A stretch of DNA of 44,387 nt from contig JAIRVZ010000106.1 in the NCBI GenBank assembly GCA_031253625.1, positions 1 to 44,387 on the forward strand, in the 5' to 3' direction. Both the position numbers and the translations under genes were made by a program. Of this stretch, positions 32,113-44,387 are shown in pieces. Within the stretch, counting starts at the first letter, position 1. Every line of letters starts with the position of its first letter. The notes beneath the pieces were generated by a model. The model ran no database searches and had not been told where the DNA came from. It was given only the letters and a program-made list of their open reading frames with translations. The DNA comes from Dysgonamonadaceae bacterium (GTDB lineage: Bacteria; Bacteroidota; Bacteroidia; Bacteroidales; Azobacteroidaceae).

Positions 32113-33534
32113 TTGAAAAGAAAAAATATAATCAGGATTATTACCTTACTCGTTGTATTGATTTACATCGGTGCCATCGTATTTTGGCATCTCTACACGC
32201 CCGATTATAATTTAACTATTCAAAACCCCGGAGCAGATAATCGTCCCGAAGGAAGTGCACGCAAAACCAATGATGTTGTTATCGGAGAGTTTTTTATGCG
32301 TTATGTCGAAAGTTCTTCAATTTTGAAAGGACAATGGCCATGTTTCAGAGGAAACGATTATAAAAATATTGCACGCACAAACGATGTAATCAATACTTCA
32401 TCTGATTTTCCTGTACAGTGGAAAGTAGAAACAGGCGAAGGGCACGCTGCGCCTGTTATTTACAACGGTCGGGTGTATTTGCTCGATTACGACGAGAAAC
32501 TCAGTTCGGATATGTTGCGTTGTTTTTCATTAGAATCAGGTATGGAACTCTGGCGCAGATGGTATCGCGTGCCAATGAAACGCAATCATGGATTTTCGCG
32601 TACTGCCCCTGTTGTAACCGATAAATATGTGATTTCCATCGGTCCGGAAGCGCACGTGATGTGCTGCGATCCAATCACGGGCGAACTGAAATGGACGTTA
32701 GACGTACAAAAACAATTCGAGACAGAAGTGCCGTTTTGGTATGCCGGGCAATGCCCGAGAATAGAAAACAACCAACTGATTTTAGCACCTGCCGGAAAAG
32801 GCATTCTGATGGCTGGAATCGATTGCGAAACAGGAGAAATTGCTTGGCAAACGCCCAATTCAGTCGGATATAAAATGTCGCATTCATCCATTATGCCAAT
32901 GACACTTAGCGGAAAGAAAACATACGTGTATGCCGGAATCGGAGGCGTTTGTGGAGTATCAGGCGAAACATCCGATAAAGGTAAATTGCTGTGGAACGTA
33001 ACATGGAAACCTTCGGTAATTGCACCTTCTCCATTGCAATTATCATCTACTGAAATCGCAATGACGGCTGGTTACGGAGCCGGAGGCGCCTTGCTGCAAG
33101 TGAAAAATACAGACGATAGATGGACGGCAACCATTACCGACCAATACAAACCGAGCGAAGGATTATCGAGCGAACAGCAAACCCCAATATTATACGAACA
33201 AATGGCGATAACCATCCTGCCGAAAGATGGCGGTGGAATGCGTGGAAAATTAGTTGCATATTCACCGACCAATTTACGCACGCCCATTTGGGAATCGGCA
33301 GCAGACGAGCGTTTCGGATTAGGGCCTTACATGATAATCGGCAATCACTTGTTTGCACTGAAAGAAGACGGAGAATTGTATCTCTATAAATTAGAACAGA
33401 GGAGAATGTCATTTGTCAAAAAACAACGCATCATGGAAGGCATTGATGCGTGGGGACCAATGGCATACGCTGATGGATATTTATTATTGCGTGATGCTCA
33501 TTGGGTTTATTGTTTAAAAATAGAACGCGGATGA
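32113..33534 (+). CDS. Membrane-anchored PQQ-like beta-propeller protein
   Basis: 473 residues from a TTG start at 32113, chosen because it gives KRKNIIRIITLLVVLIYIGAI, a basic anchor helix that no ATG start would keep. The propeller begins at CFRGNDYKNIART and has blades with GHAAPVIYNGRVYLLDYD, GMELWRRWYR, GELKWTLD, GEIAWQT. Cysteines are more frequent than in copies 1 and 2 (DMLRCFSLE, HVMCCDPIT, GQCPRIE). The last codons (Glu-Arg-Gly) and TGA stop come from the repeat at 33523, so the natural C-terminus may have been altered slightly. Confidence 0.8.
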   Translation: MKRKNIIRIITLLVVLIYIGAIVFWHLYTPDYNLTIQNPGADNRPEGSARKTNDVVIGEFFMRYVESSSILKGQWPCFRGNDYKNIARTNDVINTSSDFPVQWKVETGEGHAAPVIYNGRVYLLDYDEKLSSDMLRCFSLESGMELWRRWYRVPMKRNHGFSRTAPVVTDKYVISIGPEAHVMCCDPITGELKWTLDVQKQFETEVPFWYAGQCPRIENNQLILAPAGKGILMAGIDCETGEIAWQTPNSVGYKMSHSSIMPMTLSGKKTYVYAGIGGVCGVSGETSDKGKLLWNVTWKPSVIAPSPLQLSSTEIAMTAGYGAGGALLQVKNTDDRWTATITDQYKPSEGLSSEQQTPILYEQMAITILPKDGGGMRGKLVAYSPTNLRTPIWESAADERFGLGPYMIIGNHLFALKEDGELYLYKLEQRRMSFVKKQRIMEGIDAWGPMAYADGYLLLRDAHWVYCLKIERG

Positions 33535-33612
33535 CGCAGATGACGCGGATTTACACAGATTTTTAAAATTTATTATCTGCGAAAATCTGCGTTATCTGCG
33601 TCATCTGCGTTC
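33523..33612. repeat. Inverted pair of 9-bp arrays (GATGACGCG units), copy 1
   Basis: Left arm GAACGCG, GATGACGCA, GATGACGCG, GATTTACAC; the right arm ends in TCATCTGCGTTC and is its inverted counterpart over about 40 nt. It overlaps the stop of the upstream propeller gene and ends 15 nt before the next start. Other copies: 36421 and 40246. Confidence 0.85.
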
Positions 33613-33627
33613 TAAAAAAATAAAATT

Positions 33628-34617
33628 ATGAATAAAAAAACTTTGAAAATCGGGTTGAACATTTTAGTATTTCTTTTGATTGCTGGATTTGGATATTATA
33701 TGATTCGTTCGATAATGTCGGACAAAAATACTACTCAATCGAGCGACGAAAATGCGAAAGATGTGTTTGTTTCCCCTTACGAAAAAGTGGGTAGTTTCGA
33801 TGCTGATTCCGAAATATGGTATTTCTATATTTACGAGAATGCCATTTATGTTGCTTTGCAGGATAAAGTTTCCATTTTCGATTTGTCGGGTAAACATCAA
33901 CGAGATTTTGCGATAAAAGAAAATCCTCGCGAAATTGCGGTTGATAAAACGGCAATTTTCTTACTGTACGATACATGGGTAGATTTGTATTCTTCCGATG
34001 GACAAAAAATAGGCGGATGGGAAGCGTGTAGCGATAATTCCGAATATTGTTCGATTACAACAACTAAAGATTATGTTTTTGTGACTGATGCGGAAAACAA
34101 AAACATCGTTCAATATGATAAGCAAGGAGGATTAGTGCGATTCATCAAAAGTCCCAAAGGATTTATTATCCCAAGTTACGCATTTGATATCATCAACATA
34201 AACGACACAATCTATTGTGCCAATTCAGGCAGACATCAAATTGAAAGTTATACGCTCGATGGAGAATTTATCGCATCGTTTGGCCAAAGCGGAGCACAAG
34301 CCGGAGCCTTTGCCGGATGTTGTAACCCGATTTATCTTGCTAAAAATTCCGACGGGAATATCCTAACCTCGGAAAAAGGAAATCCTCGTATTTCATGCTA
34401 TGGGAGAAACGGAAAATTCCGCTCAATTTTATTCGATGCCAATATGTTGGGTGGCGGAACTGATGCTTACGAAATGCAGGTTTCGGGCGAAAACATATAC
34501 ATTGCAAGCGGAAAAACAATTTCAATTTATTGTAGAGACATTGCGCGCAACGTCTCTACGAAAAAATCATGTGCCGGTTGTGAAAAAGATTGCCCAATGC
34601 GTAAAGGGTTAAATTAA
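33628..34617 (+). CDS. Membrane-anchored NHL/6-bladed beta-propeller protein with a C-terminal Cys motif
   Basis: 329 residues. One N-terminal helix (about 6-26, IGLNILVFLLIAGFGYYMI) anchors an extracytoplasmic six-bladed NHL-like propeller (repeats with VFVTDAENKNIVQYDKQGG, YCANSGRHQIESYTLDGEF, ILTSEKGNPRISCYGRNGKF). The C-terminus is CAGCEKDCPMRKGLN, a C-x2-C-x3-CP stretch like part of a 4Fe-4S motif; with the earlier Cys in SIYCRD it might bind a metal. A 30-bp palindrome codes for the residues just before it. The ferredoxin gene begins 8 nt later. Confidence 0.75.
   Translation: MNKKTLKIGLNILVFLLIAGFGYYMIRSIMSDKNTTQSSDENAKDVFVSPYEKVGSFDADSEIWYFYIYENAIYVALQDKVSIFDLSGKHQRDFAIKENPREIAVDKTAIFLLYDTWVDLYSSDGQKIGGWEACSDNSEYCSITTTKDYVFVTDAENKNIVQYDKQGGLVRFIKSPKGFIIPSYAFDIININDTIYCANSGRHQIESYTLDGEFIASFGQSGAQAGAFAGCCNPIYLAKNSDGNILTSEKGNPRISCYGRNGKFRSILFDANMLGGGTDAYEMQVSGENIYIASGKTISIYCRDIARNVSTKKSCAGCEKDCPMRKGLN
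34531..34560. repeat. Palindrome read in frame in the NHL protein
   Basis: TGTAGAGAC-attgcgcgcaac-GTCTCTACG, near-perfect over 30 nt. It codes for CRDIARNVST. It resembles a widespread GTAGAGACGTTGC element that I recall from several phyla; that link is from memory. Confidence 0.65.
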
Positions 34618-34625
34618 AGCTAAAT

Positions 34626-35174
34626 ATGAAAGCATACGAAAGAAGGGAATTTCTACGCACCTGCGGACAAGTGATTGCAGGCGGAACAATATTAACGCTT
34701 TTCGAACTTTCTCTTCGCAAAGCAATGGCAAAGGGAGCGACTTATTTCTGGCAAATCGACCCAACAAAATGCACTTTTTGCGGACGTTGTGAAACCGATT
34801 GTGTATTACCGATGTCGGCCGTCAAAGCCGTACACTCAGTAAAAATTTGCGGTTTTTGCGATTTGTGCGGAGGCTACTATCGTCCCAATGTGAAAGAACT
34901 GAATACAGCAGCCGAAAATTTGATGTGTCCAACCGGAGCAATCAGCCGCAGATTTGTAGAAGAACCCTACTTTGAATATAGCATCGATGAAGATCTTTGC
35001 AACGGTTGCGGAAAATGCGCCAAAGGCTGCAATTCATTCGGCAACGGTGCGCTTTACTTGCAAATCAAGCAGAATTTGTGCAAAAACTGCAATGAGTGCG
35101 AAATCGCGAAAGTTTGTCCGGCTGATGCTATCAGGCGTGTTCCGATTGCAAAAGCATATAATTTGAAACTTTAA
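34626..35174 (+). CDS. Tat-exported ferredoxin with four 4Fe-4S motifs (NapG/MauM-like)
   Basis: 182 residues. A twin-arginine leader (ERREFLRTCGQVIAGG) precedes four cysteine clusters: CTFCGRCETDC (about 50), CGFCDLC...CPTGAI (about 76-100), CNGCGKCAKGC (about 123) and CKNCNECEIAKVCP (about 150). This is the plan of NapG and MauM, periplasmic electron carriers that work with NapH/MauN-type membrane proteins, and such a gene follows 13 nt downstream. It probably receives electrons from that partner and passes them to an extracytoplasmic acceptor. No molybdoenzyme is nearby. Confidence 0.88.
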   Translation: MKAYERREFLRTCGQVIAGGTILTLFELSLRKAMAKGATYFWQIDPTKCTFCGRCETDCVLPMSAVKAVHSVKICGFCDLCGGYYRPNVKELNTAAENLMCPTGAISRRFVEEPYFEYSIDEDLCNGCGKCAKGCNSFGNGALYLQIKQNLCKNCNECEIAKVCPADAIRRVPIAKAYNLKL

Positions 35175-35187
35175 CCTTCTTAATCTT

Positions 35188-36432
35188 ATGAATCTTATAA
35201 ATCATATTAAAATCATAGTTCAGACGACAAACCGTTTTCCGAAACCCGATTTCGAATCGGGCTATGATTACCCTGAACGTCATTACTTCGTTCCTAACGA
35301 GGCTTTTTGGTCGTATATAGATATTGCGATGCTCGTGTTGCTAATGAGTTTTGTCGCTTGGGCAGTCATTAGAAAACAGGTTCGGTGGCCTGTTATCCTG
35401 ACTTCAATAATTTCGGTTGCTTATTTCGGATTTTTCAGACACGGCTGTGTTTGTAGCATCGGTGCGGTGCAGAATGTAGCGTTGGCTTTAGCGAGCGATT
35501 CGTATACAATTCCATTGTTTGTGCTATTGATGTTTATTCTTCCTATCATTTTCACGTTATTTTTCGGAAGAGTATTTTGTGCCGGAGTGTGTCCGTTCGG
35601 AGCATTGCAAGAATTGGTAAATATCAAAAATTATAAGTTATCGAAAACCGTTACAACCATTCTAAGTATTTTCCCTTGGATTTATTTGGGTTTCGCAGTA
35701 CTTTTTGCAGTAACAAACAGCCGCTTTATCATTTGTCGTTTCGATCCTTTTGTCGGGATTTTTCGTTTGGGAGGCGAATTGCCATTGATTCTTTTTGGAG
35801 TAGTACTACTGATTATTTCAGTTTTTACCGGCCGGCCATTTTGTCGTTTCATTTGTCCTTACGGGGCTATCTTGAGCCTTTTTTCAAGGGTTTCATTTTC
35901 GCGAGTGAAAATCACCAAAAAGGGATGTATCAATTGCCAACTTTGCCACAATGCTTGTCCGGTCGATGCGATACGCGCGCCTTATGAAAATAAAGTCAAA
36001 GAAAACCGTTCTGCGGGAGTGAACCGAATTTTACGGTATATTATTTTCTTACCGCTAATGATGATAGCAGGAGCAACCACGATGTATTTGCTGAGCGATA
36101 ATTTCAGTAAAGTAAACAAGGAAGTTCAATTGTATGATAAGGTAAGTGAAAACGAAATTCGGCCGCAAGAAATACAATCGTTGGAATTACAAGCTTTTTA
36201 TGGACAAGGAAGAACCGTTGAAGAACTTAAAACACAAGTTGCCGCAATCAAAAAAGATTTTCGCATATATTCGGGAATAATCGGAGCATTTTTCGGATTG
36301 GTCATTGCGCTGACACTCATTAGTTTATCAACAAAAAGAACTCGAAAATTATACGAAATTGATGGTGCCGATTGTGTCGGTTGCGGAAGATGTTTTAGTT
36401 ATTGCCCACAGAATCAAATAGAACGCGGATAA
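35188..36432 (+). CDS. NapH/NosR-like membrane polyferredoxin
   Basis: 414 residues with about five or six transmembrane helices and several Cys motifs: GCVCSIGAVQ, CAGVCPFGALQEL and CRFICPYGAIL (the C-x3-CP pairs typical of NapH/NosR), a 4Fe-4S motif CINCQLCHNACPVDAI and a final CVGCGRCFSYCPQNQ. It would carry electrons across the membrane to the NapG-like protein. The first 13 residues (MNLINHIKIIVQT) are encoded by a 9-bp repeat array, and the last three plus the stop by the GATGACGCG repeat; the chain ends right after its last cluster. A start at Met1 is therefore uncertain. Confidence 0.85.
   Translation: MNLINHIKIIVQTTNRFPKPDFESGYDYPERHYFVPNEAFWSYIDIAMLVLLMSFVAWAVIRKQVRWPVILTSIISVAYFGFFRHGCVCSIGAVQNVALALASDSYTIPLFVLLMFILPIIFTLFFGRVFCAGVCPFGALQELVNIKNYKLSKTVTTILSIFPWIYLGFAVLFAVTNSRFIICRFDPFVGIFRLGGELPLILFGVVLLIISVFTGRPFCRFICPYGAILSLFSRVSFSRVKITKKGCINCQLCHNACPVDAIRAPYENKVKENRSAGVNRILRYIIFLPLMMIAGATTMYLLSDNFSKVNKEVQLYDKVSENEIRPQEIQSLELQAFYGQGRTVEELKTQVAAIKKDFRIYSGIIGAFFGLVIALTLISLSTKRTRKLYEIDGADCVGCGRCFSYCPQNQIERG
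35191..35225. repeat. 9-bp array of the TTCAGAC family, copy 1
   Basis: Units AATCTTATA, AATCATATT, AAAATCATA, then GTTCAGAC. The inverted counterpart at 38268-38302 differs at one base over 35 nt. One more unit (AATCTTATG) precedes it. Confidence 0.85.
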
Positions 36433-36506
36433 CGCAGATGACGCGGATTTCCACGGATAAAATAAAAAATCTGCGAAAATCTGTGTTATCCGCGTCATCT
36501 GCGTTC
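36421..36506. repeat. Inverted pair of 9-bp arrays (GATGACGCG units), copy 2
   Basis: Begins GAACGCGGATAACGCAGATG and ends CGTCATCTGCGTTC. It supplies Glu-Arg-Gly and the TAA stop of the polyferredoxin gene, and ends 16 nt before the next start. Confidence 0.85.
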
Positions 36507-36522
36507 AAAAAAATAAGAAGAA

Positions 36523-38268
36523 ATGAAAAGAACAATAAGCAGAAATATAGCCATAGTATCGGCAATCTTTATTGTCGCTTTCTCCATTATGCTTATAACC
36601 AATTATTTTCAGGTTAGCAGCACGGATACTATTCAGTCGGAAGTGATTGAAAAACTAAAGCAGGCAAACGAAGAAAACAGCGATAATCCGCAGCTACAGG
36701 AGCAAATCAGAGAATTAGACCTGTTAGCGAGAAAAGCATATTTCACAAACCTCGACAGGCTCAAAGTTGGAGCCGCCATTTTGTTGATTATGGTTATCGT
36801 GTTTGTGATTTCTCTGCGGATTTATTTTGCAAAAAACAAAGACATTCCCGACAAAGACATCGATCCCATCGACGATTGGATAATCAAATCAAAAACAAGA
36901 AAATACATCATTTGGATAGCAGGATGTTTGGCTTTGAGTGGCATTCTCTTTGCTGCACTAACTTCTCCTTACCTAAAAAACAAAACTCAAAAAGCAATTT
37001 CAGAAACAGAAATCGTTACTGATTCCCTAAACTCCTTAGAGCCCTTAGATTCCTTAGACCAAGAAACAGCCACTCCAACCGACACCGCAGCCGCCCCAAT
37101 TGCAACCGACACCATCGAAATCTCAAAAGTAACTCACAACGCTTTTAGAGGAAATAATTCGACCGGCATAAACAACGCAAAAAAGATCCCGACATCTTGG
37201 AATTTATCGTCGGGTAAAAATATCCTATGGAAAGTAAAAGTGCCGCGCAAAGGCTATAATTCTCCGGTAATCAATGGAAATAAAGTTTTCTTTTCCGGAG
37301 CCGACGAAAATGTCAGAGAATTATTTTGCTACGAATTAAATTCGGGCAAGGAATTATGGAAATTAGCAGCTAAAAATATTCCGGGAAGTCGAGTTCCGGC
37401 AACAACGGAAGATACTGGATTGGCTGCTCCAACCGTAGCAATTAACGGCAAACAGGTATGCGCTATTTTTGCCACAGGAGACGTTATTTGTGCCGATATG
37501 GATGGCAAACAACTCTGGGCAAAAAACATCGGTGTTCCCGACAATCATTACGGATACGCATCTTCACTTCTCATTTTCGGAAATTCATTGATTATACAAT
37601 ACGATAATTTAAATGCCAAAAAGGTTATCTCGTTAGATTTGACGACCGGTAATCAACGCTGGGTTAAAGAACGAACGGAAAAGCATCCGGCATGGAGCAG
37701 TCCGATAATTGCATACGTTAACAAAAAGCCACAATTAATTTTGGTCGGCAATCCGGGTATCACCTCTTACAATCCGAATAACGGAGAACAATACTGGCGA
37801 GTGGAAGCCATGTCGGGAGAACCTACTCCAAGTCCTGCCTACGCCAACGGAATCGTTTTCGCAGCAACTGAATATGCAACGATGGTTGCTATCAATGCGG
37901 AAGACGGTTCGGAACTTTGGAGAAACGATGAGTTTATGCCCGAAGTGTCCAGTCCTGTTGCTACAAAAGATTTTGTGTTTGTAGCAACATCCTACGGTGT
38001 AGTCGCCAGTTTCAACGCGCAAACCGGAGAATTAATAAAATCAATGGAAACAAATGTCGAATTTTATTCTTCTCCCATAATCGTTGAAGGAAAAATTTAT
38101 CTGATTTGCACCAAAGGAAAAGTATTTGTATTCTCTGCGAAAGGCGATTTCAGTTTGATGAACTCCTTTGAAACAGGAGAAAAAACATTTGCTACGCCGG
38201 CGTTTACAGACAAAAAGATTGTGATTAGAACTCAAGAGGGTATTTATTGTGTGTCGTCTGAGCTATAG
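36523..38268 (+). CDS. Three-helix membrane protein with PQQ-like beta-propeller
   Basis: 581 residues. Transmembrane helices at about 8-28, 80-100 and 126-147; a linker; then a PQQ-like propeller from about 205 (AFRGNNSTGINNAKKIPTSW) to the end, with blades such as GKELWKLAAKN, GKQLWAKNIGV, GEQYWRVEAMSG, GSELWRNDEFMP. The opening FRGN and PTSW resemble the other propellers of the cluster. The linker contains DSLNSLEPLDSLD, encoded by a 9-bp array in frame. The propeller should face the periplasm. A repeat arm begins at its stop codon. Confidence 0.8.
   Translation: MKRTISRNIAIVSAIFIVAFSIMLITNYFQVSSTDTIQSEVIEKLKQANEENSDNPQLQEQIRELDLLARKAYFTNLDRLKVGAAILLIMVIVFVISLRIYFAKNKDIPDKDIDPIDDWIIKSKTRKYIIWIAGCLALSGILFAALTSPYLKNKTQKAISETEIVTDSLNSLEPLDSLDQETATPTDTAAAPIATDTIEISKVTHNAFRGNNSTGINNAKKIPTSWNLSSGKNILWKVKVPRKGYNSPVINGNKVFFSGADENVRELFCYELNSGKELWKLAAKNIPGSRVPATTEDTGLAAPTVAINGKQVCAIFATGDVICADMDGKQLWAKNIGVPDNHYGYASSLLIFGNSLIIQYDNLNAKKVISLDLTTGNQRWVKERTEKHPAWSSPIIAYVNKKPQLILVGNPGITSYNPNNGEQYWRVEAMSGEPTPSPAYANGIVFAATEYATMVAINAEDGSELWRNDEFMPEVSSPVATKDFVFVATSYGVVASFNAQTGELIKSMETNVEFYSSPIIVEGKIYLICTKGKVFVFSAKGDFSLMNSFETGEKTFATPAFTDKKIVIRTQEGIYCVSSEL
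37021..37056. repeat. 9-bp array coding a linker
   Basis: Four units: GATTCCCTA, AACTCCTTA, GAGCCCTTA, GATTCCTTA. Since 9 is three codons, they encode a three-residue repeat (D/N/E-S/P-L). The unit type is the one around 20996-21574 and in the signal peptide at 145-225. Confidence 0.75.
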
Positions 38269-38302
38269 TCTGAACCATGATTTTAATATGATTTATAAGA
38301 TT
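38268..38302. repeat. 9-bp array of the TTCAGAC family, copy 2 (inverted)
   Basis: Starts GTCTGAACCATGATTTTA, the inverse of 35191-35225 with one mismatch. It begins on the last base of the propeller gene's stop and fills most of the 48-nt gap to the DUF3788 gene. Confidence 0.85.
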
Positions 38303-38316
38303 AATAGGATTGAAAT

Positions 38317-38730
38317 ATGGAAACACAATTATTAAGAAAACAGGAAATTTTCCCATCAAAGGAAGTTTTGAAAGATGTGCTTGGCGATGTCTACGCAGTG
38401 TTTGAAACATTAGAAACACAAGTTACACAAGATGAATTTGCTTTAACATTCGATTGGCATTATTATAATGATGGTAAATCGTGGTTGTGTAAAGTCTGTC
38501 ATAAGAAAAAAACGGTCTTTTGGTTATCGGTTTGGGATGGATTTTTTCAAACAGGTTTTTTCTTTTTGGAGAGACATTTAGAAGGAATTGCTGCATTAGA
38601 AATCGACGAAAATAGTTTCGTAATGGAAAAAAATGTGGGCAAATTTATTCCGCTGATTTTCAGGATTAAAAGTGAAAAACAAATCCTCGGTTTGTTGAAA
38701 ATGGTTGAATTTAAAAAGAAAGCGAAATAA
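38317..38730 (+). CDS. DUF3788-like small protein
   Basis: 137 residues, cytosolic, no cofactor motif. The aromatic pattern (FALTFDWHYYNDGKSWLCKVC, then KKTVFWLSVWDGFFQTGFFF) recalls DUF3788, a family of unknown function found in Bacteroidetes and clostridia. It is 4 nt upstream of the HXXEE gene and so lies in the middle of the redox cluster, though nothing in it indicates an electron-transfer role. Confidence 0.65.
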   Translation: METQLLRKQEIFPSKEVLKDVLGDVYAVFETLETQVTQDEFALTFDWHYYNDGKSWLCKVCHKKKTVFWLSVWDGFFQTGFFFLERHLEGIAALEIDENSFVMEKNVGKFIPLIFRIKSEKQILGLLKMVEFKKKAK

Positions 38731-38734
38731 AATT

Positions 38735-39217
38735 ATGGATAACCTACCATTTTGGATATTGACAGTAGCATACACAGGGCACATATTAGAAGAATATGTA
38801 TTTGATTGGCGCAAATGGGCACAAGAAACATCAGGATTAAAACTCGAATGGACTGAGTTTTTTATTGCAAACTTTGCAGTTATTGTTTTAGGAATTGCTT
38901 GTTCGGTTGTAGGTTTTGATTGCCCTGTTTTCTCATATCTGTTCGTTGGCTTGGCTGCGACAAATGCAATATTTGCACATATTTGCACAACAATTGTCAA
39001 AAGAAGATTTTCACCGGGATTAATCACTTCGATTTTTTTATTTATCCCTATTTGTACATGGGCTTACATCGTTGCCGGAGAAAAAGGAATATTGACCTTT
39101 CCGTTTATCCTGATTACTCTTGGAGGTGGATTACTAATCATGTTATTTCCTATATTTTTGCAGTTTATTAAAAACAAGACAAATCTAATAGAAAAAAAGA
39201 ATATAAATGACCTGTAA
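38735..39217 (+). CDS. HXXEE-domain membrane protein
   Basis: 160 residues with about four or five transmembrane helices and the family signature H-x-x-E-E in TGHILEEYVFDWRKW (residues 15-19). HXXEE proteins are of unknown function; the His and Glu pair suggests metal binding or an enzyme active site in the membrane. The gene overlaps the NuoE-NuoF fusion by 11 nt, so the two are probably translationally coupled. Confidence 0.75.
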   Translation: MDNLPFWILTVAYTGHILEEYVFDWRKWAQETSGLKLEWTEFFIANFAVIVLGIACSVVGFDCPVFSYLFVGLAATNAIFAHICTTIVKRRFSPGLITSIFLFIPICTWAYIVAGEKGILTFPFILITLGGGLLIMLFPIFLQFIKNKTNLIEKKNINDL

Positions 39218-41681
39218 CTGCAACAATAGTAATCCTCACAATAATGTCGACTTTATTGCTGAAACAGACGTTATTATAAATCAAATCGGAACATCCCGAA
39301 GTGATATTATCCCTTTGTTGCAAGCCATACAAAATGAGTTCGGTTATCTGCCACACGTAGCTATCGAACGTGTTTACGAAAAAACAGAAATCGACCGAGC
39401 GCAACTGATCAGTGTTTCTACATTTTATTCACAATTCAAACATGTTCCTTTGGGAAAGCATATCATAAAAGTTTGTACTGGTTCGGCCTGCCATATCAAA
39501 GGTGCAAGTAACGTTTACGATGCTTTTATTCGTGAATTGAAAATCAGCGAAGGAGAAACAACTACTGAAGATAAGTTGTTTTCCATCGAAAAAATTGCCT
39601 GCTTGGGATGTTGCACTTTGGCTCCGGTTGTACAGATTGATGAGAAAATTTACGGTCATGTTCAACCCGGAAAAATCAGCGAAGTCGTTGAAGATTTTTT
39701 TGCTCTTGCCGAAGAAAAAGAGAAAGAAGATTTGAAAAATGAACGAAAACGTTTGACCGGAGAAGTTCGTTTGGGATTGGGTTCTTGTTGTGTTGCAAGC
39801 GGTTCGGGCGATATTTATAAAGAATTGTTGCAAGCCTCCCGTCAACTGGGGATCGAAATTCATATCAAACCGGTAGGATGTGTCGGCGTTTGTAGTAAAG
39901 TGCCTTTGATTGATGTTGTCCAATCCGATGGTTCGGTGGTGCGATACCCGAATGTGAAAGCAGCTGAAATAAAAGAGATTTTGCATCATCATTTCAAACC
40001 TGCCACGTATTTTAAACGCTTAAAAAACAGTTTGCTGGGGCATTTGGATATGTATCATACCGATACAACTTGGGATAACGTGGTTTGGAAATCGGAAAAT
40101 GAACGTACCGACACCATAAACAACTTTCTTTCCAATCAATTACACATCTCTACCGAAGGATACGGAAATCTAACGCCCTTAAATATTGACGAATATTGTG
40201 TATACGGTGGTTTCGATGCTTTGAAAAAAGTATTAGAAGAAGAAAGAACGCAGATGACGCGGATAACGCAGATTTACGCAGATAATAATTTTAAAAATCC
40301 GCGACAATCCGCGTTATCCGTGTCATCTGCGTTCAAAAAGAAAATCATTGAATCTGTTTTGAGTAGCGGAATACGTGGAAGAGGTGGAGGCGGTTTCTCC
40401 ACCGGAAGAAAGTGGGAGATTATTTCAAAAATAGAAAGCCCGGTTAAATACGTCATTTGCAATGGAGACGAGGGCGACCCGGGTGCATTTATGGACCGGA
40501 TGTTGCTGGAATCTTATCCGTTTCGGGTAATCGAAGGAATGTTGATTGCTGCTTATGCAGTCGGAGCCTCCGAAGGTATTTTTTACATCCGTGCCGAATA
40601 TCCCTTGGCCGTTACACGCATTCGTGCTGCCATAGAAATATGCAAAGAACGTAAACTAATCGGTGAAAATATCCTCGATAGCGGATTTTCTTTTAATGTT
40701 GAGGTTTACGAAGGAGCCGGCGCATTTGTCTGTGGAGAAGAAACTGCGTTGATAGCCTCAATCGAAGGGAGTAGGGGATTTCCCAAGCAACGCCCTCCTT
40801 ATCCTGCCGAAAAAGGATTGAATGGATTTCCGACGTTGGTTAACAATGTGGAGACGTTGAGTCAAATTCCTTTTATCATTAGAAATGGTGCCGAAAGCTA
40901 TGCACAAATAGGAACCCTTAATAGCAAAGGTACCAAAGTTTTTGCCCTTGCCGGAAAAGTCAAACACGGTGGTTTGATAGAAGTACCGATGGGTATAACA
41001 TTAAATCATATCGTTGAAAAAATCGGCGGAGGAGTGGAAGGAAATGCCAAACTCAAAGCCGTTCAGGTAGGAGGTCCTTCCGGAGGGTGTATTCCTGCAG
41101 AGTTGTGCGATGTTCCGGTCGATTTCGATGCTTTCAACCGCATGGGCGCCATGATGGGTTCCGGTGGATTGGTCGTGCTGAACGAAAAAGACTGTATGGT
41201 CGATGTGGCGCGTTATTTCCTTAATTTTTCCTGCGAGCAATCATGCGGAAAATGTACATTCTGTCGTGTCGGCATCAGAAGAATGCTCGATATATTGGAT
41301 AAAATAACATCGGGCAAAGCCGAACCGGCCGACATCGACAAATTAGAACAATTGGCTTTGAACATCAAAAAAGCCTCTTTGTGCGGACTTGGAAAAACCG
41401 CTCCCAATCCGGTGCTAACTACCATTAAATATTTCCGTAAAGAATACGAAGAACATATCAACGGAATTTGTCATACCGGTGTTTGCAAAGCGATGGTAAA
41501 ATATGTCATCAACGACAGTTGCACAGGATGTACCAAGTGTGCCAAAGTTTGTCCGGAAGATGCTATTCCTTACACGCCTTATCAAATTCACATGATTGAT
41601 GTCGAAAAATGTGTACAATGCGGGTTGTGCATTGACGAATGTAGTTTTGATGCTATTCGGAAGGTCCCATTGAACAATTAA
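39207..41681 (+). CDS. NuoE-NuoF (HydC-HydB-like) fusion, NADH-oxidising iron-sulfur flavoprotein
   Basis: 824 residues. Order: NuoE-like 2Fe-2S domain (about 10-165; VCTGSACHIKGA, then ACLGCCTLAP), a thioredoxin-like 2Fe-2S domain (SCCVASGSGDIY, then GCVGVCSKVP), the NuoF core (NADH/FMN: RGRGGGGFSTGRKWE, then NGDEGDPGAFMDR), SLBB, the 4Fe-4S helix domain (CEQSCGKCTFC with a later Cys in SLCGLGK), and a C-terminal two-cluster ferredoxin (CTGCTKCAKVCP, then CVQCGLCIDEC). It should oxidise NAD(P)H or reduce it with ferredoxin, as in bifurcating HydBC. About 30 residues (347-376) before the GRGGGG loop come from an in-frame repeat. Confidence 0.9.
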   Translation: MTCNCNNSNPHNNVDFIAETDVIINQIGTSRSDIIPLLQAIQNEFGYLPHVAIERVYEKTEIDRAQLISVSTFYSQFKHVPLGKHIIKVCTGSACHIKGASNVYDAFIRELKISEGETTTEDKLFSIEKIACLGCCTLAPVVQIDEKIYGHVQPGKISEVVEDFFALAEEKEKEDLKNERKRLTGEVRLGLGSCCVASGSGDIYKELLQASRQLGIEIHIKPVGCVGVCSKVPLIDVVQSDGSVVRYPNVKAAEIKEILHHHFKPATYFKRLKNSLLGHLDMYHTDTTWDNVVWKSENERTDTINNFLSNQLHISTEGYGNLTPLNIDEYCVYGGFDALKKVLEEERTQMTRITQIYADNNFKNPRQSALSVSSAFKKKIIESVLSSGIRGRGGGGFSTGRKWEIISKIESPVKYVICNGDEGDPGAFMDRMLLESYPFRVIEGMLIAAYAVGASEGIFYIRAEYPLAVTRIRAAIEICKERKLIGENILDSGFSFNVEVYEGAGAFVCGEETALIASIEGSRGFPKQRPPYPAEKGLNGFPTLVNNVETLSQIPFIIRNGAESYAQIGTLNSKGTKVFALAGKVKHGGLIEVPMGITLNHIVEKIGGGVEGNAKLKAVQVGGPSGGCIPAELCDVPVDFDAFNRMGAMMGSGGLVVLNEKDCMVDVARYFLNFSCEQSCGKCTFCRVGIRRMLDILDKITSGKAEPADIDKLEQLALNIKKASLCGLGKTAPNPVLTTIKYFRKEYEEHINGICHTGVCKAMVKYVINDSCTGCTKCAKVCPEDAIPYTPYQIHMIDVEKCVQCGLCIDECSFDAIRKVPLNN
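40246..40334. repeat. Inverted pair of 9-bp arrays (GATGACGCG units), copy 3, inside the nuoF-like gene
   Basis: Begins GAACGCAGATGACGCGGATA and ends TGTCATCTGCGTTC, matching the intergenic copies at 33523 and 36421. The frame stays open and reads ERTQMTRITQIYADNN... to SVSSAF. Confidence 0.9.
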
Positions 41682-41709
41682 TAAAAAATAATCCTTAAAG
41701 ATTTTTGTT

Positions 41710-41717
41710 TATCTTTG
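41710..41717 (+). promoter_or_regulatory. -7 box of the small NuoG-like gene (TATCTTTG)
   Basis: TATCTTTG ends 7 nt before the ATG at 41725, so transcription should begin very close to the start codon. Confidence 0.55.
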
Positions 41718-41724
41718 CTCTCGT

Positions 41725-42327
41725 ATGAAAATCAAAATAAACAACAAAGAAATAGAGGTTTTCGTAGGCGAAAAACTAATAGAAGTTGCGCATTCCCATG
41801 GAATTGAAATACCGGCACTATGTTATGCTCCCGGCTATCAACATCAGGCATCTTGTATGGTTTGTGTAGTGAAAAATTTGACTACCAATCAAATAATTCC
41901 TTCATGTACTACTTTGGTAACCGAAGGAATGGAAATCGATACGGAAAGTGAGGAAGTAAAACGGTTACGAACAATGTCGCTCGAATTATTGTTGAGCGAT
42001 CATATTGCTGTGTGTCGCCCACCGTGCAATCCGAAAAAATGTAAGCTGCAAAAATATGCTGTCGCTTATCATGCCAAATGGAATAGATACTTGCGTTATT
42101 CGGCAATAAAAGCAACGCATCCTCAACATATAAAAGGTAATTTTTGGTTTGATGTTACCAAATGTATTCGCTGTGGCTTGTGCGTGTATAACAGCAAAGA
42201 TGGCTTTACATTCAAAGACAGAGGATTCGGAATGCAGGTTGTATTGCCCACTGAAAGTGTAATTAATGTGGATGAGTTTTTGTGTGAAATATGCCCGACA
42301 CAGGCGTTGTATTTGTCTGAATTATGA
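41725..42327 (+). CDS. NuoG/HoxU-like small iron-sulfur protein
   Basis: 200 residues. An N-terminal 2Fe-2S ferredoxin fold (CYAPGYQHQASCMVC with a later Cys in PSCTT) is followed by a His/Cys cluster motif (HIAVCRPPCNPKKC, about 91-104) and further cysteines (CIRCGLC, then CEICP). This is the layout of HoxU or the NuoG N-terminus, without the catalytic part of NuoG or HydA. The His motif spacing, H-x3-C-x3-C-x4-C, differs from the usual H-x3-C-x2-C-x5-C. It is the likely electron partner of the NuoE-NuoF fusion. Its last codons and TGA stop lie in a repeat arm. Confidence 0.85.
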   Translation: MKIKINNKEIEVFVGEKLIEVAHSHGIEIPALCYAPGYQHQASCMVCVVKNLTTNQIIPSCTTLVTEGMEIDTESEEVKRLRTMSLELLLSDHIAVCRPPCNPKKCKLQKYAVAYHAKWNRYLRYSAIKATHPQHIKGNFWFDVTKCIRCGLCVYNSKDGFTFKDRGFGMQVVLPTESVINVDEFLCEICPTQALYLSEL

Positions 42328-42330
42328 TTT
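42315..42330. repeat. Left inverted arm of the GxxExxY cassette
   Basis: GTCTGAATTATGATTT; the TGA at 42325-42327 is the stop of the upstream gene. It matches the inverse of the right arm (42719-42746) at 14 of 16 positions from the tip and is related to 38268-38302. Confidence 0.7.
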
Positions 42331-42336
42331 ATTGCT

Positions 42337-42717
42337 ATGACAAAGGAAGAACAGGATAAAATAGTAATTGAAGTAGCCCAATGTGCGAGGGAAGTTTATG
42401 ACGCTTTAGGACATGGATTTCAGGAAACTGTTTACAAACGGGCATTGTCTACAGAAATGATGTTACGAGGTATTGAACATCAGCGTGAATTTAGAGTGCC
42501 ATTATTTTATAAATGTGTTGATGTTGGACAAAAGCGAGTAGATTTTTTAGTTGAGGGTAAAATACCGGTTGAAGTAACAGCATTTGTCAATTTAGCAGAT
42601 GTGCATTTAGAACAAGCCCTAAGATACATGAAAGCATACAACTTCGGAATAGGATTGTTAATCAATTTTGGTGCCGAAGGTTTGAAAATTAGAAAAATAT
42701 TAACTAAAAATACATAA
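42337..42717 (+). CDS. GxxExxY protein (PDDEXK-like)
   Basis: 126 residues, the standard length. The name motif is present in LGHGFQETVYKRAL (G-F-Q-E-T-V-Y), followed by RVDFLVEGKIPVEV and GIGLLINFGAEGLKIRKI. The family is assigned to a PDDEXK nuclease-like fold, role unknown. The catalytic pair that is normally E-x-K (as in VELKA) reads E-V-T here, so the Lys is missing and nuclease activity is doubtful. The gene sits tightly between two redox genes and is bracketed by inverted repeat arms. Confidence 0.88.
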   Translation: MTKEEQDKIVIEVAQCAREVYDALGHGFQETVYKRALSTEMMLRGIEHQREFRVPLFYKCVDVGQKRVDFLVEGKIPVEVTAFVNLADVHLEQALRYMKAYNFGIGLLINFGAEGLKIRKILTKNT

Positions 42718-42718
42718 G

Positions 42719-42746
42719 ACTTAATTATGAAAATCTTAGTTCAGAC
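42719..42746. repeat. Right inverted arm of the GxxExxY cassette
   Basis: ACTTAATTATGAAAATCTTA followed by GTTCAGAC. It contains the ATG (42727) and first codons (MKILVQT) of the downstream lipoprotein gene. Confidence 0.7.
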
Positions 42747-43863
42747 TATCTTTTTTATTTTCCTTTTTTCTGCTTGTGCTAATAAAAAAGAAAGCAACGA
42801 ACCCGATTCTATTGATTGGAGCATCTTTAGAGGAAATCCGGCACTTAGTGGTTATACAAATGTATCGTTGCCGGATAATCCTGAACTTTTATGGACGTTC
42901 AAAAGTGATTCTTATACCAAATCTTCGCCCATAGTGTATAACCAAGTTGTCTATTGGAGTAATAGGCGTGGACGTATTTATGGTGTGAACAACGAAGGAA
43001 AACAAATTTTCGATTATTCGATGGAAACAGCAGTCGATGCAACTCCAATGATTTACGATTCGACGTTGTATATCGGACGTATCGACGGTAAACTATGTGC
43101 CATATCTTTAGAAAAGCAAGATACTTTATGGACTTTTGAAACGCTCGGACAAATTGCAGCTTCTCCGAACCAAATTAGTTTTGAAGGGAAAAATGCTATT
43201 GTCGTAGGAAGTTACGATAACTATCTTTATTGTATCGACAGCAGCGATGGAAAAGAAATCAATCGTTTTGAATCGGGTTATTACATCAATGGAGCAGTAG
43301 CGCGAAACAATAACTTTCTCGTATATGGCGGATGCGATGGTTGGTTTAGAGTGGTCGACTGCATTTCCGGCATACAAACCGATTCATTGGAAGTTGAAAC
43401 TTACATCCCTGCCTCTCCTGCTATTCAAGACAATTGGTGCTATATTGCCGATCATTCGGGAAATATTTACGAAATCGAATTATACAAAGGAAAGATCGCC
43501 TCATCCAAAAAAATAATGGAATCACAAGAAGGTTCGCTTGTTTCGGTTCCTGCCGTTTCCGACAAAATGGTTTATATCGTTTCCGACGACAGAAACATAT
43601 ATGCAATCAACCGAAAAGACGGTTCTATTGCATGGAAATACCTCTTGAAAGGCGATACCGGAGAAAGTTCGCCCATTGTCTGTGACGACAAACTGCTGGC
43701 CTGCACCAAATCGGGAATTGTTTCCATACACGATGCAAAAACCGGAAACTTGCTGTGGGAATACGATACCGGAGAGCAAATCATTGCCTCGCCCGCTGTA
43801 ATTAACGGATATTTTTATATCCTGACATTCAAAGGAACATTGTTTTGCTTTGGGAGAAGTTAG
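42727..43863 (+). CDS. PQQ-like beta-propeller lipoprotein (BamB-like fold)
   Basis: 378 residues. A lipoprotein signal (LFSAC, lipidated Cys17) precedes a PQQ-like propeller opening at IFRGNPALSGYTN, with seven or so blades such as PELLWTFKSDSYTKSSPIV, KQDTLWTFETLG, GSIAWKYLLKGDTGESSPIV and GNLLWEYDTGEQIIASPAVI. Size and blade style resemble BamB, but the locus context points to the redox cluster. The signal peptide begins inside a repeat arm. Its TAG stop is the first codon of an 8-bp repeat array. Confidence 0.85.
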   Translation: MKILVQTIFFIFLFSACANKKESNEPDSIDWSIFRGNPALSGYTNVSLPDNPELLWTFKSDSYTKSSPIVYNQVVYWSNRRGRIYGVNNEGKQIFDYSMETAVDATPMIYDSTLYIGRIDGKLCAISLEKQDTLWTFETLGQIAASPNQISFEGKNAIVVGSYDNYLYCIDSSDGKEINRFESGYYINGAVARNNNFLVYGGCDGWFRVVDCISGIQTDSLEVETYIPASPAIQDNWCYIADHSGNIYEIELYKGKIASSKKIMESQEGSLVSVPAVSDKMVYIVSDDRNIYAINRKDGSIAWKYLLKGDTGESSPIVCDDKLLACTKSGIVSIHDAKTGNLLWEYDTGEQIIASPAVINGYFYILTFKGTLFCFGRS

Positions 43864-43902
43864 TAGTAAGTTAGTAAGTTAGTAAATTAATAAGTTGGTA
43901 AG
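43863..43902. repeat. 8-bp array, left side of the four-helix-bundle cassette
   Basis: Five units: GTAGTAAG, TTAGTAAG, TTAGTAAA, TTAATAAG, TTGGTAAG. It starts at the stop codon of the propeller lipoprotein and has the same unit as 29135-29166. Confidence 0.8.
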
Positions 43903-43919
43903 TTGAAAATTAAATAACA

Positions 43920-44279
43920 ATGACTATTCTAAAATTTGAAGATATATTTGCGTGGCAAAAGGCGCAAAATTTGGCTGTTGAAATTTATAAAAATCTTGGC
44001 AATATAAAAGATTATGGTTTTAAAGACCAAATATGTAGAGCAGTAGTATCTATTTCAAATAATATTGCTGAGGGTTTTGATAGAAGTTCGAATGCTGAGT
44101 TTGTTAGATTTTTGTATATTTCATTAGCATCTTGTAGTGAGGTAAAGTCAATGCTTTATCTTTCCGAAAAATTGAATTATACAACAAATGAACAAAGTAA
44201 AATTTTACTTGTACAAACTTCCGAAGTCCATAAAATGACAAGAGGCCTTATTGCCTACATAAAAAACCAACAAAAATAA
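43920..44279 (+). CDS. Four-helix-bundle protein (23S rRNA intervening-sequence protein family)
   Basis: 119 residues, typical length. It has the family pattern FEDIFAWQKAQNLAVEIY, GFKDQICRAVVSISNNIAEGF, and FVRFLYISLASCSEVKSMLYL (TIGR02436/PF05635 type). Members were first noticed in intervening sequences of 23S rRNA genes; their function is unknown. Here the gene is not in an rRNA gene but between a propeller lipoprotein and an ABC ATPase, flanked by 8-bp arrays in inverted orientation. Confidence 0.9.
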   Translation: MTILKFEDIFAWQKAQNLAVEIYKNLGNIKDYGFKDQICRAVVSISNNIAEGFDRSSNAEFVRFLYISLASCSEVKSMLYLSEKLNYTTNEQSKILLVQTSEVHKMTRGLIAYIKNQQK

Positions 44280-44283
44280 TTAA

Positions 44284-44307
44284 CATACTAACTTATTAAC
44301 TTACTAA
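44284..44307. repeat. 8-bp array, right side of the four-helix-bundle cassette
   Basis: Units CATACTAA, CTTATTAA, CTTACTAA, the reverse complement of the left-hand units, ending 6 nt before the ABC ATPase start. Confidence 0.8.
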
Positions 44308-44313
44308 CTAATT

Positions 44314-44387
44314 ATGCTAAAATTATCAGGAATAACAAAAAAATACCCCGACGGAGAAAATTCATTCAATCATGTGCTCCGTGGAGT
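44314..44387 (+). CDS. ABC transporter ATP-binding protein, N-terminal fragment
   Basis: Only 24 codons are in the window. MLKLSGITKKYPDGENSFNHVLRGV matches the start of MacB/LolD-type ATPases (L-x-L-x-x-I-x-K-x-Y ... V-L-x-G-V). The Walker motifs lie beyond the edge. Its closeness to the propeller lipoprotein may mean a lipoprotein- or envelope-related exporter belongs to the cluster. Confidence 0.75.
   Translation, partial: MLKLSGITKKYPDGENSFNHVLRG

Follow-up and report, generated by a model that had tools for sequence, protein, structure and literature searches.

A short GxxExxY gene lies between two inverted arms at the junction of two other genes, at positions 42315 to 42746 of a 44,387-nucleotide stretch of DNA from a Dysgonamonadaceae bacterium (hereafter, the window), and the locus raises the question of whether gene and arms form a mobile unit and, if so, of what kind.

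The GxxExxY gene and its inverted arms

The initial annotation had placed inverted tips on both sides of the gene, the left one supplying the last codons and TGA of a NuoG-like protein and the right one supplying the start of a lipoprotein. The features concerned are as follows.

41725 to 42327, plus strand: neighbour F, a short 2Fe-2S/4Fe-4S protein of 200 aa that terminates in the left arm
42315 to 42330, plus strand: left arm tip GTCTGAATTATGATTT, contributing LSEL and the stop to the upstream Fe-S gene
42337 to 42717, plus strand: GxxExxY / PDDEXK_3 gene of 126 aa (TIGR04256/PF13366 profiles, predicted PD-(D/E)XK fold)
42731 to 42746, minus strand: right arm tip GTCTGAACTAAGATTT (read on the reverse strand), which, together with adjoining nucleotides, encodes the start of the lipoprotein (ATG, MKILVQT)
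42727 to 43863, plus strand: neighbour G, a PQQ-like beta-propeller lipoprotein that begins in the right arm

The two tips agree as inverted repeats at 14 of 16 positions and are separated from the ends of the open reading frame by 6 nt on the left and 13 nt on the right, confirming that they bracket the gene. When the inverted match of the flanks was compared with dinucleotide-preserving shuffles, it was reached in 0 of 3000 for 40-nt flanks, with P of about 0.0003 for 60 nt and 0.013 for 100 nt; together with the family-wide controls described below, these shuffles rule out arms formed by chance. Each tip is one mismatch away from GTCTGAACYRTGATTT, and 16-mers like GTCTGAACYRTGATTT occupy four sites in the window versus 0.17 expected, the other two being at 35210 and 38268. 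Read as codons, the left arm gives TTG TCT GAA TTA TGA, i.e., LSEL and a stop that ends the upstream Fe-S protein, and the lipoprotein ATG is at 42727 in the right arm, as had been claimed for both. The arms of this cassette are short and decayed, compared to 30-50 nt in intact relatives, and a search of Rfam over 34000-44387 returned zero matches. The description of the upstream neighbour as NuoG-like needed refinement: it is a short Fe-S protein, nearest to the N terminus of FeFe hydrogenase A6/NuoG. Its length is 200 aa compared to about 330 aa in relatives, with a middle segment of ~125 residues absent between residues 102 and 104.

Assignment of the gene to the GxxExxY family was correct, evident by scores of 106 bits against TIGR04256 (cut-off 35) and 104 bits against PF13366 (cut-off 22), with E of 1e-30. 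In the GxxExxY alignment, E30, D69, E79, and Q93 are near-invariant and K81 is present in 104 of 108 aligned rows; the window protein retains E30, D69, and E79 and has Thr at the catalytic position of Lys81 (EVT), leaving its ExK incomplete. The missing E-x-K Lys is therefore a property of this copy and not a trait of the family, and the window protein, judged from its sequence, is a catalytically doubtful member. Two other genes without the Lys, L085 and L091, likewise have weak arms.

An AlphaFold2 model of the window protein adopts a PD-(D/E)XK fold with pLDDT of 92.6. Among the matches listed, its best solved structure was Cas4 SSO0001 (E of 4e-4, Z of 8.7); several restriction-like folds came next, and Hjc scored a Z of 6.4. 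Cas4/SSO0001, Hjc, and PD-(D/E)XK homing endonucleases share the fold and the E...D...ExK residues with this family, whereas the window copy is without the Lys and a sequence search of its protein against solved structures gave nothing useful. Comparison with PHROGs returned a weak match to one family of unknown role and nothing else. Because this fold is common in defence nucleases and the gene is patchy among relatives, with GxxExxY genes present in 23 of 61 related genomes, the protein could be a defence or toxin-like nuclease that spreads by horizontal transfer, its arms being autoregulatory or antidote-like hairpins. We regard this as highly improbable, since the protein matched none of the PADLOC defence models at E of 0.01, no partner gene accompanies it, and the gene-less copies and junction insertions described below would go unexplained. 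Among 5.39 million papers, the name GxxExxY occurs in two, one of which mentions it in passing.

Arm classes and gene-less palindromes

At 30 loci from related genomes, most GxxExxY genes are enclosed by inverted arms. When the two flanks of one locus were paired locally, the score averaged 24.7, compared to 10.5 (sd 3.7) for flanks mixed between loci, and the arms fall into several classes (GTCTGAACC.TGATTT..., GAACGCAGATGACGCGGATT..., AACCACATAGACACATAG..., and others). By Mantel test, protein identity correlated with cross-flank arm similarity with rho of 0.41 (p of 2e-4), and with rho of 0.36 when orthologous leuCD insertions were left out. The proteins nearest to that of the window, L084 and L090 (60%), have the same tips; next come L074, L075, L070, L067, L083, and L078, and the majority of these nearest loci have GTCTGAAC-type arms. 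The clade was also scanned by profile with one genome per species, which gave 80 named loci, 78 of them scored; the tip pattern GTCTGAACYnnGATT with up to 2 mismatches was searched within 200 nt of each gene, with windows 1 kb away used as controls. The clade tip was detected upstream in 54/78 loci and, inverted, downstream in 44/78, while the control windows gave 0/118. Loci with this tip are mainly from Bacteroidota, but others exist, e.g., single loci of Anabaena, Ignavibacteriota, and Myxococcales. One member with a complete ExK, L113 of Mucilaginibacter pankratovii, has near-perfect arms of 40 nt, and 22 tips were counted in its genome. A survey of other GxxExxY flanks had been proposed in the initial annotation, with a lack of inverted arrays there counting against a mobile unit; such arms are present far above controls. 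Altogether, as far as sequence comparison reaches, arm class tracks protein clade, which shows that arms and gene form one unit, although this linkage by itself cannot separate recognition of the arms from joint inheritance.

The GTCTGAAC tip is similar to the central part of the uptake sequence of Neisseria DNA (GCCGTCTGAA), a likeness that we take as coincidence; apart from Neisseria papers containing GTCTGAAC, a literature search with the arm sequence gave nothing but noise from primers.

Arms and palindromes also occur elsewhere in the window, as listed here.

33523 to 33612, no strand assigned: gene-less palindrome of the GAACGCAGATGACGCGGAT class, lying where two genes meet
35172 to 35225, minus strand: lone arm of the same class as the cassette arms, with its tip at 35210-35225; the next open reading frame begins inside it (MNLINHIKIIVQT...)
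36421 to 36506, no strand assigned: gene-less palindrome of the GAACGCAGATGACGCGGAT class at the A|B junction, giving an ERG-stop end to the upstream open reading frame
38268 to 38316, plus strand: complete left arm of the same class as the cassette arms (GTCTGAACCATGATTTTAATATGATTTATAAGATTAATAGGATTG), at the B|E junction and immediately preceding a DUF3788 gene
40246 to 40334, no strand assigned: gene-less palindrome of the GAACGCAGATGACGCGGAT class, in frame within ORF E (39207-41681)

At 38268-39217, the lone GTCTGAAC arm is followed by the DUF3788 gene and a 170-aa open reading frame between B and E, and a right arm was not found; these two reading frames may be a different cargo carried by this type of element.

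Gene-less palindromes with the GTCTGAACYRTGATTT tip consist of two arms joined over 90-110 bp and reach dozens per genome. The exact tip was counted 66 times in G026, 54 times in G019, and 24 times in G016, with 0 in most other relatives; as a control, the reversed pattern gave 1 match across 61 genomes and 0 in G026 and G019. Many tips in these last two genomes form convergent pairs that enclose palindromes of 90-102 nt. The palindromes fold to near-perfect hairpins (z of -7 to -18), and arms within one copy are more alike than arms between copies, even within the tips (p of 1e-4). Copies that carry a gene between the repeats of their gene-less counterparts were found at G026:C57, G022:C24, G029:C185, and C134 of the window's own genome. 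At some palindrome ends (L241, L237, and L246, with GTCTGAACTGTGATTTTC repeated), a tip of 18-20 nt is multiplied in tandem, which suggests that tips become duplicated when elements move or are repaired.

In the window's own genome, the expanded class is a second one, with 64 CGCAGATGACGCGGATTT sites (up to 2 mismatches) versus 0 for the control; the sites are mostly paired and mostly make up palindromes of 81-121 bp with GAACGC ends. Among 15 distinct GAACGC palindromes, 10 separate genes in tandem and 2 separate convergent genes, 0 were seen between divergent genes, and 2 are within open reading frames. An intact GxxExxY gene of this genome, L003, lies between leuC and leuD with second-class arms, and another, L002, has an internal stop. 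The window copy probably represents an old element with an inactive nuclease whose class now has few sites, while the class with an intact nuclease has expanded, the contrast between the expanded and the sparse, decayed class being a correlation from a single genome. Three GAACGC palindromes lie in the window itself, at 33523-33612, 36421-36506, and 40246-40334. The last of these, within ORF E, encodes an insert of ~30 aa that is missing in five relatives, and a near-identical peptide, RTQMTRITQIYADNN(F/L)KNPRQSALS(V/A)SSAFKK, occurs in a permease-like open reading frame of the same genome (C17:57852-57934, L358).

These data bear on a rival reading in which arms and palindromes are MITE- or REP-like repeats moved by an unrelated transposase (e.g., of the IS200/605-type HuH kind), with GxxExxY as captured cargo. 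Palindrome families without a dedicated transposase gene do exist (CGTC REPs, PMC3733652), the gene-less palindromes outnumber the genes and occur without them (G016, G002, and G003), and the arm ahead of the DUF3788 gene, as well as the like layout around S23 genes, which are unrelated to PD-(D/E)XK, would fit a cargo role; the arm-protein covariation is equally expected if the gene is merely cargo. Tips are more numerous in genomes with the clade gene (61 genomes, p of 4e-4), and they also occur without an intact clade gene in G016 (24), G002 (14), and G019 (54, with a gene fragment only), as well as in G003, so that several genomes call for either a different agent or an earlier loss of the gene. 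Nevertheless, one protein family is accompanied by different arms in each clade and shared arms within a clade, arms are the rule across the 78 scored loci, and repeated capture of cargo would not always give this family with its own arm type. We therefore consider the cargo reading unlikely, while giving it real weight.

Occupied and empty gene junctions

The operon A-B-E-F-G is conserved in G009, G011, G016, G029, and G059, the lipoprotein of G016 being on a separate contig, and these five relatives are without a GxxExxY gene at the F|G junction, contrary to what would be expected if the gene were always carried here with unrelated flanks. The F|G junction, which holds the cassette in the window, has an unrelated, gene-less heptamer array in G011 and G029, inside which the lipoprotein reading frame of both begins, and a plain, repeat-free spacer of 43 bp in G059. 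At A|B, the GAACGC palindrome of the window corresponds to a GTTTAAGGTTTC-type palindrome in G011 and G029 and to 17-26 bp in G059, G009, and G016. The B|E junction carries the GTCTGAAC arm with two small open reading frames in the window, a decayed arm of the same class in G009, and 7-14 bp in the other four. Between leuC and leuD, a GxxExxY cassette is present in G000, G011, and G035, decayed in G024, with remnants in G025 and G029; at the same junction G055 has an S23 cassette and G015 an S23 gene directly before leuD, and most others have 3-54 bp. A gene-less palindrome at G026:C5 is missing from the orthologous site of G019 (85% identity), and this one gene-less empty site compared is not exactly base-precise. 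The empty sites anticipated in the initial annotation were thus found, as was the predicted preference for gene junctions, at F|G, A|B, B|E, and leuC-leuD, although some gene-less copies lie within genes. The target duplications that were to accompany them did not appear in clean form: there was none in the GTCTGAAC class, and target sites of the GAACGC class showed a weak A/T-rich excess (P of about 0.01-0.03) and no consistent duplication.

Palindromic repeats unrelated to these classes were seen at the same junction types, i.e., between leuC and leuD at L264 (G022) and L260 (G038), and at G013:C90 (L297), and such spacers seem to serve repeats of several families as common insertion sites.

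A position behind genes at operon junctions and strong hairpins, reminiscent of REP-type 3' hairpins, would also suit fixed regulatory hairpins of the operons (terminators or mRNA stabilisers), with the gene as an ordinary resident. The comparison of junctions makes this very unlikely: orthologous junctions are without the hairpins or have unrelated classes, one class is inserted in frame in coding sequences, and near-identical copies number dozens per genome with none in most relatives.

Orientation was scored for the clade loci by mechanical open reading frame calls, for which random small open reading frames, many of them spurious, gave no useful control; the upstream neighbour was co-directional in 56 of 56 loci, while downstream neighbours were co-directional in 46 and convergent in 10. 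The co-directional upstream gene fits read-through expression and insertion at 3' ends.

A further cassette follows the lipoprotein gene in the window.

43920 to 44279, plus strand: S23 / four-helix-bundle gene with inverted TTAGTAAG-type arrays on either side, at ~43866-43905 and 44280-44312

At 30 loci of relatives (L204-L233), S23 genes are likewise enclosed by inverted tandem arrays of 7-8-nt units in many sequences, with an own-flank score of 17.8 compared to 9.6 for mismatched flanks, and they occupy the same kind of operon junctions as GxxExxY cassettes. By their architecture, S23 genes represent another family of cassettes arranged in the same way. S23 is encoded by intervening sequences of 23S rRNA (PMC4990558), which are similarly small selfish units with one short open reading frame and complementary ends; those sequences, however, lie in rRNA, whereas the S23 gene of the window lies with arrays of its own between operon genes, and the protein encoded by the GxxExxY cassette is a different one. 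The shared layout, together with the invariably co-directional upstream gene, could mean that arms pair in the transcript and that the element spreads via an RNA intermediate like S23-bearing intervening sequences. We assign very little probability to such a route, as the element has no reverse transcriptase, the gene-less copies are symmetric, and co-directionality is also expected from a need for read-through.

A candidate hairpin-element family

Altogether, the feature is probably a degenerate gene-bearing copy of a palindromic mobile-element family that is REPIN/RAYT-like in organisation and carries a PD-(D/E)XK gene. A complete element consists of an arm of 35-50 nt with tip GTCTGAAC and TGATT/AGATT units every ~9-10 nt, the GxxExxY gene, and the inverted arm. 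It is inserted between genes, almost always behind a gene of the same direction, and because its ends carry in-frame stops and starts, the neighbouring genes are kept intact; expression would most likely occur by read-through from the upstream gene. The GxxExxY nuclease most likely recognises palindromes of its own class as hairpins or cruciforms and cuts them, after which host repair or replication would produce copies at other places; the protein would act in cis on the gene-bearing copy and in trans on those without a gene. The window copy, with its catalytic Lys lost and its arms short, is probably immobile. The small mobile unit proposed in the initial annotation is thus supported by empty sites, family arms, and junction insertions, while mobilisation of the palindromes and transposition by the encoded protein are steps that we infer. 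It is also conceivable, at a little under an even chance, that GxxExxY proteins are dedicated mobilisers of an undescribed class of prokaryotic hairpin elements, each clade recognising its own palindrome, which it would spread in trans across gene junctions by means of a PD-(D/E)XK nuclease instead of the HuH transposase used for REPINs; S23/four-helix-bundle cassettes with inverted arrays of 7-8 nt would then be a second, parallel class.

The closest parallel is REPIN/RAYT (REPtron; PMC3116915, PMC3733652), which likewise has hairpin-forming inverted doublets without a gene, in many copies per genome and mostly extragenic, one or few gene-bearing copies between the same repeat, and lineage-specific classes paired to protein clades. 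RAYT, however, is a HuH tyrosine (Y1) transposase, unlike the PD-(D/E)XK-fold GxxExxY protein, and the present hairpins are 90-110 bp long, built of 9-10-nt subrepeats, tipped by GTCTGAAC or GAACGC rather than GTAG-tagged, and found mostly in Bacteroidota; since both gene and tags differ, the element is not a REPIN/RAYT member. Rickettsia palindromic elements (PMC10969869), palindromes of about 90-150 bp that lie in frame within genes of unrelated proteins and encode a conserved peptide, are matched in this respect by the GAACGC class, but they have no known gene-bearing partner, whereas this second class is also found on GxxExxY cassettes of the same genome and most of its copies are intergenic. 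MITEs and insertion sequences with terminal inverted repeats likewise have short inverted ends, gene-bearing and gene-less forms, and empty sites; the present element, in contrast, contains no DDE or HuH transposase, and a consistent target duplication was not detected.

In a literature search that mostly covered papers from outside subscription journals, no description of a GxxExxY-palindrome association was found, and the element type appears to be widespread but undescribed. Class-specific palindromes would give GxxExxY, a widely annotated family of Bacteroidota, a concrete role. If this is true, REPIN-like populations within genomes have evolved with more than a single type of nuclease at their centre, and many hairpin repeats between operon genes of Bacteroidota, as well as some in-frame peptide inserts, would be insertions rather than regulation.
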